A stretch of 6,325 nucleotides of DNA from the NCBI GenBank assembly GCA_016932235.1, contig JAFGDF010000026.1, positions 1 to 6,325 of the forward strand. Reading direction: 5' to 3'. The DNA comes from Deltaproteobacteria bacterium (GTDB taxonomy: Bacteria > Desulfobacterota > DSM-4660 > Desulfatiglandales > HGW-15). The translations under genes were made by a program, and so were the position numbers. This document shows, in pieces, positions 1,145 through 6,323 of this stretch. Under the pieces are notes generated by a model that was given only the letters and a program-made list of their open reading frames with translations, was not told where the DNA came from and searched no databases. Position 1 is the stretch's first letter; each line of letters starts with the position of its first letter.

Positions 1145-2896
1145 ATGAGGAAAAAGATACTGATTTTCAGCCTTCTATTCGTGGTAGTTGCCCTGATTTC
1201 GATCGGGGTAACGCCATTGGCAACAGGGCAGGCGGATACGGCAAAAAGCAATGAACGATTGGTCACTGTATTGAATCCCGCGATTTCGAGCAGGATGGTG
1301 GAGCGGATTCCGCTCGCGCCGCGCACCGATACCCTGGAAGGAAAAACCATTTACCTGGTCGACCTTCAGTGGGGCGGTCCCAAGGCCGCGTACAGCGTCT
1401 TCGAGGAGATGCAGGACTGGTTTTCCCGGAACATGCCGTCAGTCAAGGTAGAGATACGAAGGGCAAGCAGCGGTTGGATGGGCGATGATGCTGGTCTGCG
1501 GAAGGAGATAATCTCCAAGAAGGCCGGTGGAGTCGTCATCGGGATTGGCGGTTGACACGGCTGCGTATCGGCCGTGCGCCGATTTGCAAGGAACATTGAA
1601 CTTGAAGGCAAGATACCCACCGTGGGCGCTTCCGGCGTCAATGTTGTAAAATTCAAGGATTACGAGCTTAAATACTCCAACGGCATGCCCATCCGGTTTG
1701 TCGCGTTTCCGTTTCCCGTTGCCGGTCAGCCAAGGGCTGTACACAAGGGCTATGTCGAAGGGAAGGATCTCCTGAGCGGCAAGCCGATGATGCAGGCTAT
1801 TATAGATGCCCTTACAAAGCCTCTTACTGATGAAGAAAAGAAAGAGGGGATGCCCCCGGAGGGAACTCCCGAGCCGAGGCTTCTGAGGCCGGACACTGAG
1901 GACAATCTGCAACGCCTGTTTAAAGACAGGGAGTGGACCGACTTCAATCCTATAATACTTCCTACCGAAGAGAGGGTGGAGGCAATGCTCAAGGGGACCA
2001 GCCACAGGCCCGAAGAGGTGGTGAGCAAAATAGGCTCCCGCGAAATGACGGTAGAAAAGGCCGCGATTTACGCGGTTATGGCCGGCGCGAAACCGGAATA
2101 TTTCCCGACCATTCTCGCAATCCTTACCCAGGCGCCGTCTTTCGGCAATTCAACAAGCTCCATGGCAAACATGATCATTGTGAGCGGGCCGATCCGAAAA
2201 GAACTGGGCATGAATTCAGGCGTTGACACAATGGGTCCCTTCAGCGAGGCCAACTCGGTGTTAGGCAGGACTTTCACGCTGGCAGGCAAGATAATGGGAG
2301 ACCTCCGTCTAAACGAAGGCGCTTATTCAACGCTTGGAAGCAACCTTCAATACAACAATATATGTTTTGCCGAGAACGAAGAAATGCTGCCCGAGGGATG
2401 GAAACCCCTCCATGTGCAGCTGGGCTTCAAGCCCACGGACAACGTTGTCAGCATAGGCGTTGGATGGAGCTACATATCGAGTGTGGGAGAATCCCTGATT
2501 AACCATCCTCCTCATATGCTGATCAGGGACTATATGAGGGCCCTCACGGGCATGGGAGCGACCGTCGTGGTGGACCCGACCGTCGCCGGCCTGCTCAAGG
2601 ACGCCCATGGTTTCAAGACAAAGGATGAACTGAGTGAATGGCTGTCCAAGAACGTGGAGGTAGCCGTCGGAACATACTGGGGAAACGGGGTGAATACGAC
2701 AGCAATGATGCCGATGGCCCTTCAGGGGCTGGAACCTTACGCAAGCTGGTTAAAACTGCCCCCGGAAGCAATGATCAAGCCATTCTCTGATCCCAGGTCT
2801 ATCCAGGTTGTGGTTGCGGGCGGAGGGATCCAGAGCACATGGTTTGTAACGGACTTTAGATTCGGCAGAGGAATTCTGATCGACAAATGGAAATGA
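1145..2896 (+). CDS. Exported UGSC-family-like selenoprotein with U-H-G-C motif (TGA at 1553-1555 read as Sec)
   Basis: This is one 583-residue protein if the in-frame TGA (codon 137) is read as selenocysteine; the frame is identical on both sides of it. Residues 1-30 are a signal peptide (charged MRKK, hydrophobic core, cleavage near ATGQA), so the protein is predicted periplasmic. Residues about 41-160 match the UGSC (seleno)protein domain: the LAPRTDTLEGKTIYLVD start (57-73), then GGVVIGIGG-U137-H-G-C140, then an IELEGKIPTV-like segment, where the family typically has U/C-G-S-C. The C-terminal part continues the family pattern: ILPTEERVEAML near 270, TVEKAAIYAVMAGAKPEYFP near 302-321, CFAENEE at 407-413, and a Gly-rich VVVAGGG near 556-562. 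The only other sulfur or selenium thiol residues are C140 and C407, which points to a U-x-x-C thiol/selenol redox centre. The reaction and substrate are unknown. It is followed 22 bases later by the esterase. Alternatives are a sequencing error at a Cys codon or a nonsense mutation; the SECIS-like hairpin and the family alignment argue against both. Confidence 0.88.
1553..1555 (+). other. UGA selenocysteine codon (Sec137)
   Basis: The TGA interrupts an otherwise continuous frame exactly where UGSC-family proteins carry Sec or Cys. It is preceded by the VVIGIGG strand-turn and followed by His-Gly-Cys. The first codons after it, CAC GGC, are also those I recall after the Sec codon in E. coli fdhF. 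Decoding would need SelA, SelB, SelC and SelD, none of which is in this window. Confidence 0.85.
1562..1588 (+). promoter_or_regulatory. Bacterial SECIS-like hairpin
   Basis: The upper stem is six perfect pairs, ATCGGC (1567-1572) with GCCGAT (1578-1583), closing a five-base loop CGUGC with G in the second position followed by U. A U/U mismatch (1566/1584) separates it from a lower stem, UGCG (1562-1565) with UGCA (1585-1588), made of three Watson-Crick pairs and one G-U. The upper stem begins 11 nt after the UGA and the apical loop 17 nt after it. This agrees with known bacterial SECIS geometry (SelB-binding element inside the coding region, G early in the loop, unpaired U below). Pairing was done by eye; no folding energy was computed. 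Confidence 0.8.
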
Positions 2897-2918: not shown

Positions 2919-4466
2919 ATGACTATTCAAAGAGTGTTTGCCTTTTTTCTAATGATTTTTTTATTGGCAGGGATAATCCTTTCAGGTTGTGTGAAAAAGA
3001 CTGAAGTTATTATGCCGGAAGTTCTTTCTGATCCATTGAAGATAGATACCGGGTATATCTCGGGGACCTTGATAGGAGATGTCCATAATCCCGTAAGGGC
3101 CTACAGGGGGATCCCTTATGCCGCACCGCCAGCGGGTGATTTGCGATGGAAACCGCCTCAGCCGGCTGCCCCATGGGATGAAATACGTCCATGCGTGGAA
3201 TTCTCCAAAATACCTCCACAGGCGGCAATGCCCGGTTTTCCGCAAACACCACCACAGAGCGAAGATTGCCTCTATCTAAATGTAATGACCCCGGCAAAAA
3301 CAGTTGGGGAGTCGCTGCCTGTAATGGTCTGGCTGCATGGAGGGGGATACTCTTCCGGATCTGGCACTGATCTCCTGTCCAACCTGCATCGTCTGCCTCA
3401 GCATGGTGTGGTGCTCGTTACCGTCAGCATGAGGCTTAATAGTTTCGGATTGCTTGCGCATCCCCTTTTGACAGCGGAATCGCCCAATAATTCATCAGGC
3501 AACTACATGTCTCTGGATATGATAGCGGCCCTTAATTGGGTCAAGAGAAACATATCCGTGTTCGGAGGCAATCCCGATAATGTCACTATATTCGGGGAAT
3601 CCGGAGGAGGATCCAAGGTCTCCACCCTTATGGCATCTCCTCTTGCCAAAGGCCTGTTTCACCGGGCCATCTGCGAGAGCGGATCGTCCATAGGAGGTTT
3701 TTTAAACGGCAGAGATCTCAAGGAGATGGAGGAACTGGGCATTAAATTATTTGCCAAACTGGGCGTTGATAAGGAGGAAGATCCTTTGAAGGCGGCAAGG
3801 GCGCTTCCATTCGAAAAGATCATGGAGGCAAGAGATGCCATGATGAAGGATCTTCAGGGTGACAGAAGGAGTATCGGTCTGGATGACTCAACTGTTGACG
3901 GCTGGTTTCTGCCTAAAACACCGCTGGAGCTTTTTGAGGCTGGAGGATATAACGCTGTTCCCTTAATCACCGTAGCCAACCTGGGCGAAATAACAGGACC
4001 GGGAGGATTATTGTTGCCGCAGCTTATTCCAGCCTATGTGAACATGCATGATTTCCAGAATAAGGCCGGTGTAAAGGGTTATGCCGCCATATTCGACCAG
4101 GTTCCCAGCAAATGGAGGGCGGAAGGGGCCGTATCCACGCATGCCATGGAGGTCCTGTATGTCTTTGGGGACTATGACAACAGGACGGGTTGGTGGCCTT
4201 TCATGCACGGCCTCGCTAGCGCATCAGGTGCAAAAGACCCGAATGATCCGGGTCTCACTGAAGCGGACAGAAATGTCTCCGAGGCCATGATGAAGATGTG
4301 GACCCGGTTTGCCCTGACAGGAGATCCTAATATTGAAGGCATGATCCAATGGCCGGCCTATGATAAAGAGGATGATAAATATATGTATTTTGCCGATCCG
4401 CTTGAGATCAAGGCCGGATTTTCAAATATAAAGCCCCCATCTCCGCCGCCGCAGCCACCTGTTTAA
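2919..4466 (+). CDS. Type-B carboxylesterase lipoprotein
   Basis: The 515-residue alpha/beta-hydrolase belongs to the carboxylesterase type B (COesterase) family and would hydrolyse carboxylic esters. The N-terminus is a lipoprotein signal with lipobox LSGC, lipidated Cys24, so the enzyme should be membrane-anchored in the envelope. Family landmarks in order are YRGIPYAAPP (62-71), SEDCLYLNV (114-122), oxyanion loop HGGG (140-143), nucleophile elbow GESGG with Ser228, probable acid Glu357 in NLGE (354-357), and catalytic His408 in a THAMEVLYVFG context. Residues after 500 form a proline-rich tail. Two oddities: the elbow is GESGG where GESAGG is usual, and Glu357 to His408 is only 51 residues, well below the roughly 110 of classical members such as acetylcholinesterase, so the cap/C-terminal region is shortened. 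The triad looks complete and the enzyme likely active; the substrate is unknown. It is co-directional with, and 22 bases after, the selenoprotein. Confidence 0.92.
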   Translation: MTIQRVFAFFLMIFLLAGIILSGCVKKTEVIMPEVLSDPLKIDTGYISGTLIGDVHNPVRAYRGIPYAAPPAGDLRWKPPQPAAPWDEIRPCVEFSKIPPQAAMPGFPQTPPQSEDCLYLNVMTPAKTVGESLPVMVWLHGGGYSSGSGTDLLSNLHRLPQHGVVLVTVSMRLNSFGLLAHPLLTAESPNNSSGNYMSLDMIAALNWVKRNISVFGGNPDNVTIFGESGGGSKVSTLMASPLAKGLFHRAICESGSSIGGFLNGRDLKEMEELGIKLFAKLGVDKEEDPLKAARALPFEKIMEARDAMMKDLQGDRRSIGLDDSTVDGWFLPKTPLELFEAGGYNAVPLITVANLGEITGPGGLLLPQLIPAYVNMHDFQNKAGVKGYAAIFDQVPSKWRAEGAVSTHAMEVLYVFGDYDNRTGWWPFMHGLASASGAKDPNDPGLTEADRNVSEAMMKMWTRFALTGDPNIEGMIQWPAYDKEDDKYMYFADPLEIKAGFSNIKPPSPPPQPPV

Positions 4467-4473
4467 GGACAAT

Positions 4474-4533
4474 AGGGTCAGGGCTACACATTTGACAGAA
4501 TTATTGTTTTGTCAATTGTGTAGCCCTGACCCT
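4474..4533. repeat. 60-base near-perfect palindrome, possibly a REP/RAYT-type element
   Basis: The arms are a perfect 17-base match, AGGGTCAGGGCTACACA (4474-4490) with its reverse complement at 4517-4533. After one T/T mismatch, TTGACA (4492-4497) pairs with TGTCAA (4510-4515), and a few further pairs lead to a short AT loop. The GGGTCAGGGC arms resemble dispersed GGGTCAGG-type palindromes that I recall near REP-associated tyrosine transposases in environmental bacteria. No run of T follows on either strand, so it is not a classical intrinsic terminator, though such a stem could slow transcription or protect the upstream mRNA 3' end. It starts eight bases after the esterase stop and ends 17 bases before the cytochrome ATG. 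Confidence 0.85.
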
Positions 4534-4550
4534 CCTACTTACGAAATGAA

Positions 4551-6323
4551 ATGACCAGAATGCCTTTGTATTCACACAATTGTTACGCCTCCGCGAGAAT
4601 TTCCATTTCAAGGGGTTCGAAATGGGTCGCGGTTATAGGCGTTTTTGTATTAGCCGGGATTATATTTCGCCCGTGGTTACAGGTTTCAGCGCAGGGAGCG
4701 ACTCCTGAAAGGATTATTGGAGGTATCGTCTGTGACGACAAAGGCCCCGTTTCCAGGGCCATAGTCCGGATCCAGACTACTGAACACAGCGCTGTAACCG
4801 GTTCTGAAGGAGAATTCGAACTGGCTGCACCCGAATCTTTCAGCGGCCCCGTCAAGCTCACAGCATGGGCTAAAGGCTATTTCATTGGTGGGCCGGTTGA
4901 GGCCTCGCCCGGGGAAAAGGACGTGAAGATTTCCATTCACCGACACAGCCGGTGGGATAATCGCGAATACGAGTGGCTGCCCTCCTTACGATCAGCCGGT
5001 TCCGGCAAAAGTCAGGCGTGCTCCGAGTGTCACTACCGACGTGAGGATGCCTCACTCCCCGTTCTTCCGGTCGATGAGTGGCTTGAAGACGCTCATTCCC
5101 AATCCGCCGTAAACCCGCGTTTTATTACCATGCATACCGGCAAAGACATGTCAGGCCGCCGGAGCCCGTCAACCCGCTATAGACGCACAAAAGACAATGA
5201 GCTGTTTCCTCTTCCCCCGGATCCTGAAGAGCCCTATTACGGACCCGGTTACAGGCTCGATATTCCGAACCATACCGGCAATTGCGGCACCTGCCATATT
5301 CCCGGGGCGGCAATCAATGCGCCATTTAATACTGATCCTGTATCGGTACAGGGAGTCGAAGCAGAGGGAGTCAACTGCGACTTCTGCCACAAAATCTTGG
5401 ATGTCCGCCTCGACCCCGTCACAGGGCTTCCTTTTCCGGATAAACCCGGGGTACTTTCCTACGAATTCCGCAGACCTTTCGAGGGGCATCAATTCTTTGC
5501 CGGGCCCCTGGACGATATCTCCCCGGGCGAGGACACGTATTCCGAACTTCAGACGCGCAGCCAGTTCTGCGCCCCATGCCATTATGGAGTTTTTGAGAAT
5601 ACGGTTGTTTACGATTCCTTCGGGGAGTGGCTGCGAAGCCCCTACAGCAATGAGGAAACGGGAAAGACTTGCCAGGATTGCCATATGCCGAGCTCCGGGG
5701 CTGAATTCTTCGCCCATCCCGAAAAAGGCGGGCTCAGACGTGATCCTGATACTGTTGTCAGTCACAAAATGCCCGGAGCAAGAGACCTTGATCTCCTCGA
5801 GAACTCGGTGTCTCTTACCATTGAGGCAGAGCGATTGCCGGAAGGGATCCGGGTCAGAACAAAGGTTGTCAATGACCTCGCTGGTCACCATGTTCCCACT
5901 GACTCGCCACTTCGACATTTAATACTTGTAGTAGTGGCCTATGGCAGCGACGCTTCCAGATTATCTCTCAAGGAGGGGCCTGTTCTCCCGGAGTGGTGCG
6001 GCCTCGGGGATCCGGCAGACGGATGCTACGCCGGGCTTCCCGGAAAGGTGTTCGTTAAGCTGCTTGAAGAGATTAGGACAGGAGTATCACCAACGGCTGC
6101 ATATTGGAACCCGACACGGGTAGTGATGGACACCCGGCTCGGAGCGTTCGAATCCGATGTTGGTGAATTCCTGTTTAGCGCTCCAGATTCGGGAGATGTG
6201 CGAATCGAGGCTGTCCTCCTCTACCGGAGGGCCTACAAGAAGCTCATGGTCCTCAAGGGTTGGAATGAGCCCGACATCGTCATGGAGTCGGCCGCAGTCT
6301 CTATATTTCAAAAGCAATCGTGA
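4551..6323 (+). CDS. Exported five-haem cytochrome c with N-terminal carboxypeptidase-regulatory-like domain
   Basis: The 590-residue protein has an N-terminal hydrophobic segment (24-40) and a VSA|Q cleavage site near 47, so it is exported to the periplasm, where c-type haems are attached. Residues about 55-130 look like a CarboxypepD_reg-type beta-sandwich (GGIVCDDKGPVSRAIVRI, GSEGEFEL). Five CXXCH haem sites follow: 157-161, 245-249, 276-280, 340-344 and 374-378. Segments such as DEWLEDAHS (175-183), FGEWLRSPY (357-365), CQDCHMP (374-380) and SHKMPG (404-409) recall cytochrome c554-like multihaem proteins, with histidines available as distal ligands. Residues about 415-590 form a beta-rich C-terminal domain with AGHHVPTD (444-451). 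The likely role is periplasmic electron transfer, or a redox reaction with an unknown substrate. The start is uncertain: no Shine-Dalgarno precedes 4551, and an in-frame ATG at 4560 is an alternative. The palindrome directly upstream may separate its expression from the esterase. Confidence 0.88.
   Translation: MTRMPLYSHNCYASARISISRGSKWVAVIGVFVLAGIIFRPWLQVSAQGATPERIIGGIVCDDKGPVSRAIVRIQTTEHSAVTGSEGEFELAAPESFSGPVKLTAWAKGYFIGGPVEASPGEKDVKISIHRHSRWDNREYEWLPSLRSAGSGKSQACSECHYRREDASLPVLPVDEWLEDAHSQSAVNPRFITMHTGKDMSGRRSPSTRYRRTKDNELFPLPPDPEEPYYGPGYRLDIPNHTGNCGTCHIPGAAINAPFNTDPVSVQGVEAEGVNCDFCHKILDVRLDPVTGLPFPDKPGVLSYEFRRPFEGHQFFAGPLDDISPGEDTYSELQTRSQFCAPCHYGVFENTVVYDSFGEWLRSPYSNEETGKTCQDCHMPSSGAEFFAHPEKGGLRRDPDTVVSHKMPGARDLDLLENSVSLTIEAERLPEGIRVRTKVVNDLAGHHVPTDSPLRHLILVVVAYGSDASRLSLKEGPVLPEWCGLGDPADGCYAGLPGKVFVKLLEEIRTGVSPTAAYWNPTRVVMDTRLGAFESDVGEFLFSAPDSGDVRIEAVLLYRRAYKKLMVLKGWNEPDIVMESAAVSIFQKQS

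Follow-up and report, generated by a model that had tools for sequence, protein, structure and literature searches.

Positions 1145–2896 of the window (the whole 6,325-nucleotide stretch of DNA that was analysed) are, in all likelihood, a single gene that encodes an exported selenoprotein of two domains, in which selenocysteine (Sec) at residue 137 would take part in a U-x-x-C redox role; taken as a whole, this is the best explanation of the results. The two unnamed proteins under which the databases hold such a gene are very probably, judging from sequence, one exported selenocysteine-containing protein. The reading frame, the conservation of its internal TGA codon and of the hairpin that follows, the exchange between Sec and Cys, the Sec machinery in the genomes of relatives and the domain architecture were all computed directly.

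The joined frame, its domains and its putative function

The preliminary description had proposed a single gene split by an in-frame UGA, with a promoter, a ribosome-binding site and a signal peptide before the split and none of these after it. The two frames, 1145–1555 (+ strand, 136 aa) and 1574–2896 (+ strand, 440 aa), are indeed the same frame, and its sole interruption between 1145 and 2896 is the TGA at 1553–1555 (codon 137). With this TGA read as U, the frame translates into 583 residues with U at 137 and then reaches its final TGA, codons 137 and 584 being the only TGA codons in the gene. At this GC content, the chance of 445 codons staying open after a TGA is approximately 9e-9. Inspection of the sequence upstream of GTG 1574 found no ribosome-binding site like the one before ATG 1145, so that this part of the claim also stood, and a simple charge and hydrophobicity test for signal peptides was passed by 31 of the 32 aligned members of the family, the window protein included. 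The promoter fared less well: its sigma-70-like sequence matches at 11 of 12 positions, but two such sites were observed in the scanned region vs. 2.8 ± 1.6 in shuffles, and the promoter claim alone is thus not significant. The features of the gene are as follows.

1044–1072, + strand: sigma-70-like match, TTGACA-17-TATAGT
1135–1147, + strand: ribosome-binding site GGAGGGAG (1135–1142) and start codon ATG 1145, from the sequence
1145–2896, + strand: putative selenoprotein gene in full, encoding 583 residues, Sec137 included, and ending at the stop TGA 2894–2896 (translation, UGSC match, alignment)
1145–1228, + strand: signal-peptide-like N-terminus, approximately residues 1–28, predicted to direct export
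1268–1735, + strand: UGSC domain (PF24696), residues 42–197, Rossmann/flavodoxin-like in the model
1553–1555, + strand: TGA codon 137, probably decoded as selenocysteine and opening the U-H-G-C motif (33 of 33 loci and 23 homologues, see below)
1562–1564, + strand: TGC codon of Cys140, candidate resolving cysteine, invariant in the family alignment (32 rows) and in the long homologues
1563–1587, + strand: bacterial SECIS-like hairpin, pairs 1563–1565/1585–1587 and 1567–1572/1578–1583, loop CGUGC (covariation, codon constraint)
1574–1576, + strand: GTG at which the truncated frame (440 aa) begins, Val144 of the joined frame and inside the SECIS loop (frame list, alignment)
1766–2893, + strand: C-terminal domain, approximately residues 208–583

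The split had been placed inside a UGSC-type domain with the TGA at its U/C position, which the profile search bore out: the joined frame matched PF24696 (E 4.7e-7, 30.5 bits, gathering cut-off 25), and neither half alone matched any Pfam family at E ≤ 0.001. PF24696 was also matched, at E up to 1, by all 32 members of the family alignment A3 (31 of 33 loci described below plus the window), in which the protein sequence is conserved on both sides of codon 137. Two loci were omitted from A3, L030 because its frame hits a further stop 98 codons past the TGA and L031 because it ends before any stop; both were retained in the SECIS and codon counts. As for the expected U/C-x-x-C motif, the pair itself is present (U137 and C140), while the literal U-G-S-C motif is absent from the window protein, which reads U-H-G-C. 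The protein also scored only 16.4 bits, below the curated cut-off of 125, with the NCBIfam equivalog NF041046 (UGSC_fam). It is a UGSC-domain variant with a second conserved domain, a point that the preliminary description had missed, and no Pfam family and no clear solved fold were found for this C-terminal domain (approximately residues 208–583).

The passages on the UGSC selenoprotein family (PF24696, NF041046) in PMC2398784, published in 2008, describe Sec in a U-x-x-C motif within the UGSC domain, with rarer Cys forms (in ocean metagenomes, 255 Sec vs. 21 Cys forms), and suggest a thioredoxin fold for the domain. The window protein shares the domain, the motif and the position of the Sec site, but it differs in its predicted export, its length of 583 residues, its second domain, its UHGC sequence and its low NF041046 score. 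The same passages report a UGSC/Unknown_1 fusion, in which the UGSC domain is likewise fused to a conserved domain (PMC2398784); this 2008 fusion may include the architecture of the window protein. The same two parts are found in L135 and L136, in which the TGA lies in a small UGSC part and the C-terminal domain in a separate frame nearby.

The window protein is most likely a selenol-based, cell-envelope oxidoreductase that would cycle between selenol/thiol and selenenylsulfide. The U-x-x-C redox pair would consist of Sec137 and Cys140, located at the N-terminus of the helix that comes after a beta strand in the Rossmann-like UGSC domain, and the substrate site would probably be shaped by the C-terminal domain. 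From the results above and below, we infer Sec insertion, export and a redox role for the product of 1145–2896, which would be an envelope enzyme with Sec/Cys redox chemistry. In L090, L093 and L085, a UGSC gene is directly preceded, on the same strand, by a TrxR-like gene, i.e., one whose best NCBIfam profile was thioredoxin-disulfide reductase, and another such gene adjoins selB in L133. The scores were under the curated cut-off, and three of the four reductase pieces were incomplete; the search covered 791,130 bases of fetched loci. In addition, in database entry P0134, in which a frame error is possible, a TrxR-like reductase is fused to a Cys-bearing UGSC domain. The three gene pairs and P0134 thus favour a thioredoxin-like redox role for those members.

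Sec could also be inserted and yet serve to break a substrate bond reductively, as glycine, sarcosine and proline reductases do, rather than to exchange disulfides, an alternative that concerns the function only and that we consider possible but less likely. GrdB and GrdF of these amino-acid reductases have a U-x-x-C motif. So does PrdB, as listed in a table of PMC2398784. Some relatives of the window protein show a weak profile likeness to these selenoproteins (GrdF in 5, PrdB in 3 and GrdB in 2 of the 32 members of A3, at E up to 1), the second domain is large and there are many paralogues, which suggests substrate diversity. However, the best E-value was 0.0013 (GrdF), neither the window protein nor any of the ten members tabulated singly had a match, the window protein differs from GrdB/GrdF/PrdB in architecture, and the TrxR-like neighbours and joined entry argue for the thioredoxin-like role in some members. 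An exported Sec enzyme family that has a linked second domain and, for some members, TrxR-like neighbours is directly testable.

Conservation of the TGA codon and of the hairpin

The joined protein, used as query, matched 3487 of 7996 scored candidates at E ≤ 0.001; the best 120 of the 3487 were 422–445 aa long and covered only 70–76% of the query, and thus correspond to the part after the TGA. With the first part as query, 1644 matches were found at E ≤ 0.001, the best 120 of which had 123–151 aa, the top one being the window's own. The prediction that gene callers would break the gene in two was observed directly in P0170 (VJ373_05915, 136 aa) and P0006 (VJ373_05920, 440 aa), which have neighbouring locus tags in one Desulfatiglandales MAG. 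The result suggests that hypothetical proteins now stored separately, in their thousands, are halves of a single selenoprotein family.

Long homologues were sought with query residues 36–142 among candidates limited to 0.55–1.75 times the joined length, which yielded 23 matches among 152 candidates. Column 137 is Cys in 12 and Leu in 11 of these homologues, and column 140 is Cys in all 23. For example, P0123 (585 aa), which is 59% identical to the joined protein, has GISGCDSCTS where the window protein has GIGGUHGCVS. A scan of genome contigs identified 33 loci of the window's family in MAGs titled Acidobacteria/Acidobacteriota, Terriglobia, Deltaproteobacteria and Gammaproteobacteria; TGA is found at the column in all 33, with the upstream frame open for 126–197 codons. 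Among 26 more distant loci sampled from one phylum, 18 had a UGSC domain with the column covered, each with TGA; eight had no UGSC domain in the stretch examined, and one row was gapped. Both checks proposed earlier, i.e., for Cys at the column in homologues and for a sense codon replacing the TGA, came out on the side of Sec: no sense codon was found in the 33 loci, although Ser, Leu, Thr, Gly or Asn does stand there in more distant paralogues.

The hairpin right after the TGA shows compensatory changes and strong synonymous constraint. In 34 aligned segments, its stem (11–13/33–35 and 15–20/26–31, with the TGA as 1–3) is paired in 82% of the cells, compared to at most 34% when the same stem is slid by 1 to 3 columns. 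Changes on both sides occur in 5 of the 9 pairs (34 sequences), and on none of five measures did any of 500 shuffles score as high as the real alignment. The rows left unpaired number 9 of 34 for pair 17–29, 8 of 34 for pair 15–31 and 12–14 for the lower three pairs. Codon choice within the hairpin is nearly fixed: Ser is TCG in 31 of 32 cases (17% elsewhere in the same genes), Ala is GCC in 31 of 31 (48% elsewhere) and Val is GTG in 33 of 34 (33% elsewhere). The loop G-U lies at +22/+23, counting from the T of the TGA; the corresponding nucleotides of the E. coli fdhF SECIS are G23 and U24. SelB and tRNA-Sec would decode the UGA at 1553–1555 as selenocysteine at this hairpin, the stem of which begins 8 nt past the UGA.

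A covariance model of the 33 loci, with the window held out, gave window positions 1553–1609 a score of 62 bits (E 1.5e-12), compared to 8.3 bits for the runner-up; the high score is partly plain sequence similarity, and the structural evidence lies in the pair counts. The reach of the model is narrow: across 18 other sources, its hits were limited to L084 (14 bits) and three of the loci on which it had been trained, and it missed all selD genes and other distant UGSC genes supplied. Plain folding of four window segments was not significantly stable (z −0.23 to −1.31), and support for the hairpin therefore rests on comparison. The TGA, the hairpin and the Cys homologues agree with one another and, at the level of sequence, support the full-length selenoprotein that had been proposed.

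The database entries are annotated as two genes, with translation ending at the TGA and a separate gene starting at GTG 1574, but this reading is very improbable. The GTG has no ribosome-binding site, such a split would cut the domain and its U-x-x-C motif apart, TAA or TAG never takes the place of the TGA found in 33 of 33 loci, the hairpin has pair covariation and synonymous constraint, and long homologues carry Cys at the column.

Selenocysteine machinery in the genomes of relatives

The proposed check for selA, selB, selC and selD was made indirectly, through relatives. In 15 genomes of relatives, selB was over the cut-off in 13, and selC, selA and selD were in 14 each, vs. 2 (selB), 5 (selC), 1 (selA) and 2 (selD) among 14 known control genomes. 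The tRNA-Sec model lacks specificity around its cut-off of 47 bits, which 5 of the 14 controls exceeded; the best scores of 14 relatives were 67.5–75.5 bits, and that of G004 was 45.9. Neither selA nor selD was found in G008, and selB was not above the cut-off in G008 and G010. On one contig of G009 (L133, G009:C2:140000-156000), two TGA-bearing UGSC genes are interleaved with selB, selA and selC. In many of the relatives' genomes (L046, L049 and others), selD itself has one in-frame TGA (Sec-SelD).

In 297 genomes of one phylum, PF24696 was matched in 31, 30 of which had at least one TGA-bearing match. All 30 genomes with TGA-bearing UGSC genes were selA-positive, compared to 192 of the 297 overall, the hypergeometric probability of which is 8.6e-7, or 3.0e-5 without eight genomes known beforehand, in both cases uncorrected for kinship. 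The one PF24696 genome without TGA, G856, has a weak partial match in which the column is unreadable, and it is not among the selA-positive genomes.

An altered code, with TGA as Trp or Gly throughout, would open the frame too, but no result here supports it and its probability is minimal: the other three frames of the window have no internal TGA and hold 23 TGG in all, the cytochrome gene of the window terminates in TGA, the column is Cys or Leu and never Trp or Gly in the 23 long homologues, and Sec machinery was found in relatives. A pseudogene or a sequencing error at codon 137, from which a lone in-frame TGA in one gene can arise, is likewise supported by no result here and has a negligible chance, given the identical TGA in all 33 loci and the conservation of the protein on either side of the codon.

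UGSC-domain paralogues and neighbouring genes

UGSC-domain matches in the 15 genomes numbered 26, 15, 25, 13, 12, 15, 8, 7, 16, 23, 10, 8, 11, 16 and 13 (218 in total), counts that MAG contamination or strain mixing could inflate. Among 150 of the 218 matches, 133 had a TGA (one also a TAA) and 17 did not. The column residue in these 17 is Ser (12), Leu (2), Thr (1), Gly (1) or Asn (1), Cys was found in none, and the second Cys is also absent in 15 of the 17. These 17 non-Sec UGSC paralogues (L121–L132) are in genomes that hold Sec paralogues too. TGC stands at the column in L083 and in L082, the latter of which has a TGA 29 codons later. Of the fetched paralogue rows, 62 covered the column and 43 of these had TGA, 39 being distinct after removal of four repeats; one more row was gapped. 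A 39-row comparison, in which L095 and L112 were aligned on the wrong TGA, served as an impression only. L011, L019 and L020 each have a plus-strand UGSC gene and two minus-strand UGSC genes, and all six of the latter have TGA. In a second phylum, PF24696 was matched in just 5 of 398 genomes. It should be noted that at most 4, 8 or 11 candidates were scored per genome, depending on the scan (8 for the 398 genomes and 11 for the 297 genomes).

UGSC-containing proteins appear in two reviews (PMC13188914; PMC9312934) and a survey of bacteria (PMC5029168), and UGSC is listed among the least widespread selenoprotein families in algae (PMC7539508) and with UAG in Geodermatophilaceae (PMC5330540). 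A search of open-licence PMC full texts brought up no publication that describes exported UGSC proteins as having expanded in Acidobacteria. Two features go beyond the literature searched: the exported form, whose C-terminal domain is unmatched, and the 7–26 UGSC-domain matches in each relative's genome. The result added here is a fused and probably exported UGSC branch that is widespread, occurs in genomes with many UGSC-domain genes and is split in databases.

The exported two-domain UGSC selenoproteins may form a large, diversified and almost wholly mis-annotated superfamily of cell-envelope enzymes that has grown to at least a dozen paralogues per genome in some MAG lineages of Acidobacteria, Deltaproteobacteria and Gammaproteobacteria, with Sec serving different substrates and with side branches in which Ser or Leu replaces Sec; we regard the chances for and against this reading as evenly balanced. 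If it is true, UGSC proteins make up the bulk of the selenoproteomes of these organisms. For comparison, a 2026 review gives totals of at least 57 and at least 63 selenoprotein genes for the two largest bacterial selenoproteomes that it names (PMC13188914). The 7 to 26 UGSC-domain matches per genome point to lineages that have seen a great expansion of one selenoprotein domain.

Two genes follow the selenoprotein gene.

2919–4466, + strand: carboxylesterase, lipoprotein-like N-terminus by eye, own ribosome-binding site, 22 nt past the selenoprotein stop
4551–6323, + strand: protein that has five CxxCH motifs and, at its N-terminus, a stretch resembling CarboxypepD_reg, with a weak likeness to the (seleno)protein ExtKL

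The carboxylesterase may be functionally linked to the selenoprotein. The protein encoded by 4551–6323 has no internal TGA, and the UGSC gene of L024 has a relative of it upstream. Positions 4474–4533, located between the esterase gene and that for the cytochrome, form a long, near-perfect inverted repeat that has the look of a small mobile-element- or terminator-like hairpin and matches microRNA families only below gathering scores. Divergent from the selenoprotein gene, a 266-aa frame at 3–800 (− strand) leaves the window; it has no Pfam match and is outer-membrane-barrel-like by eye.
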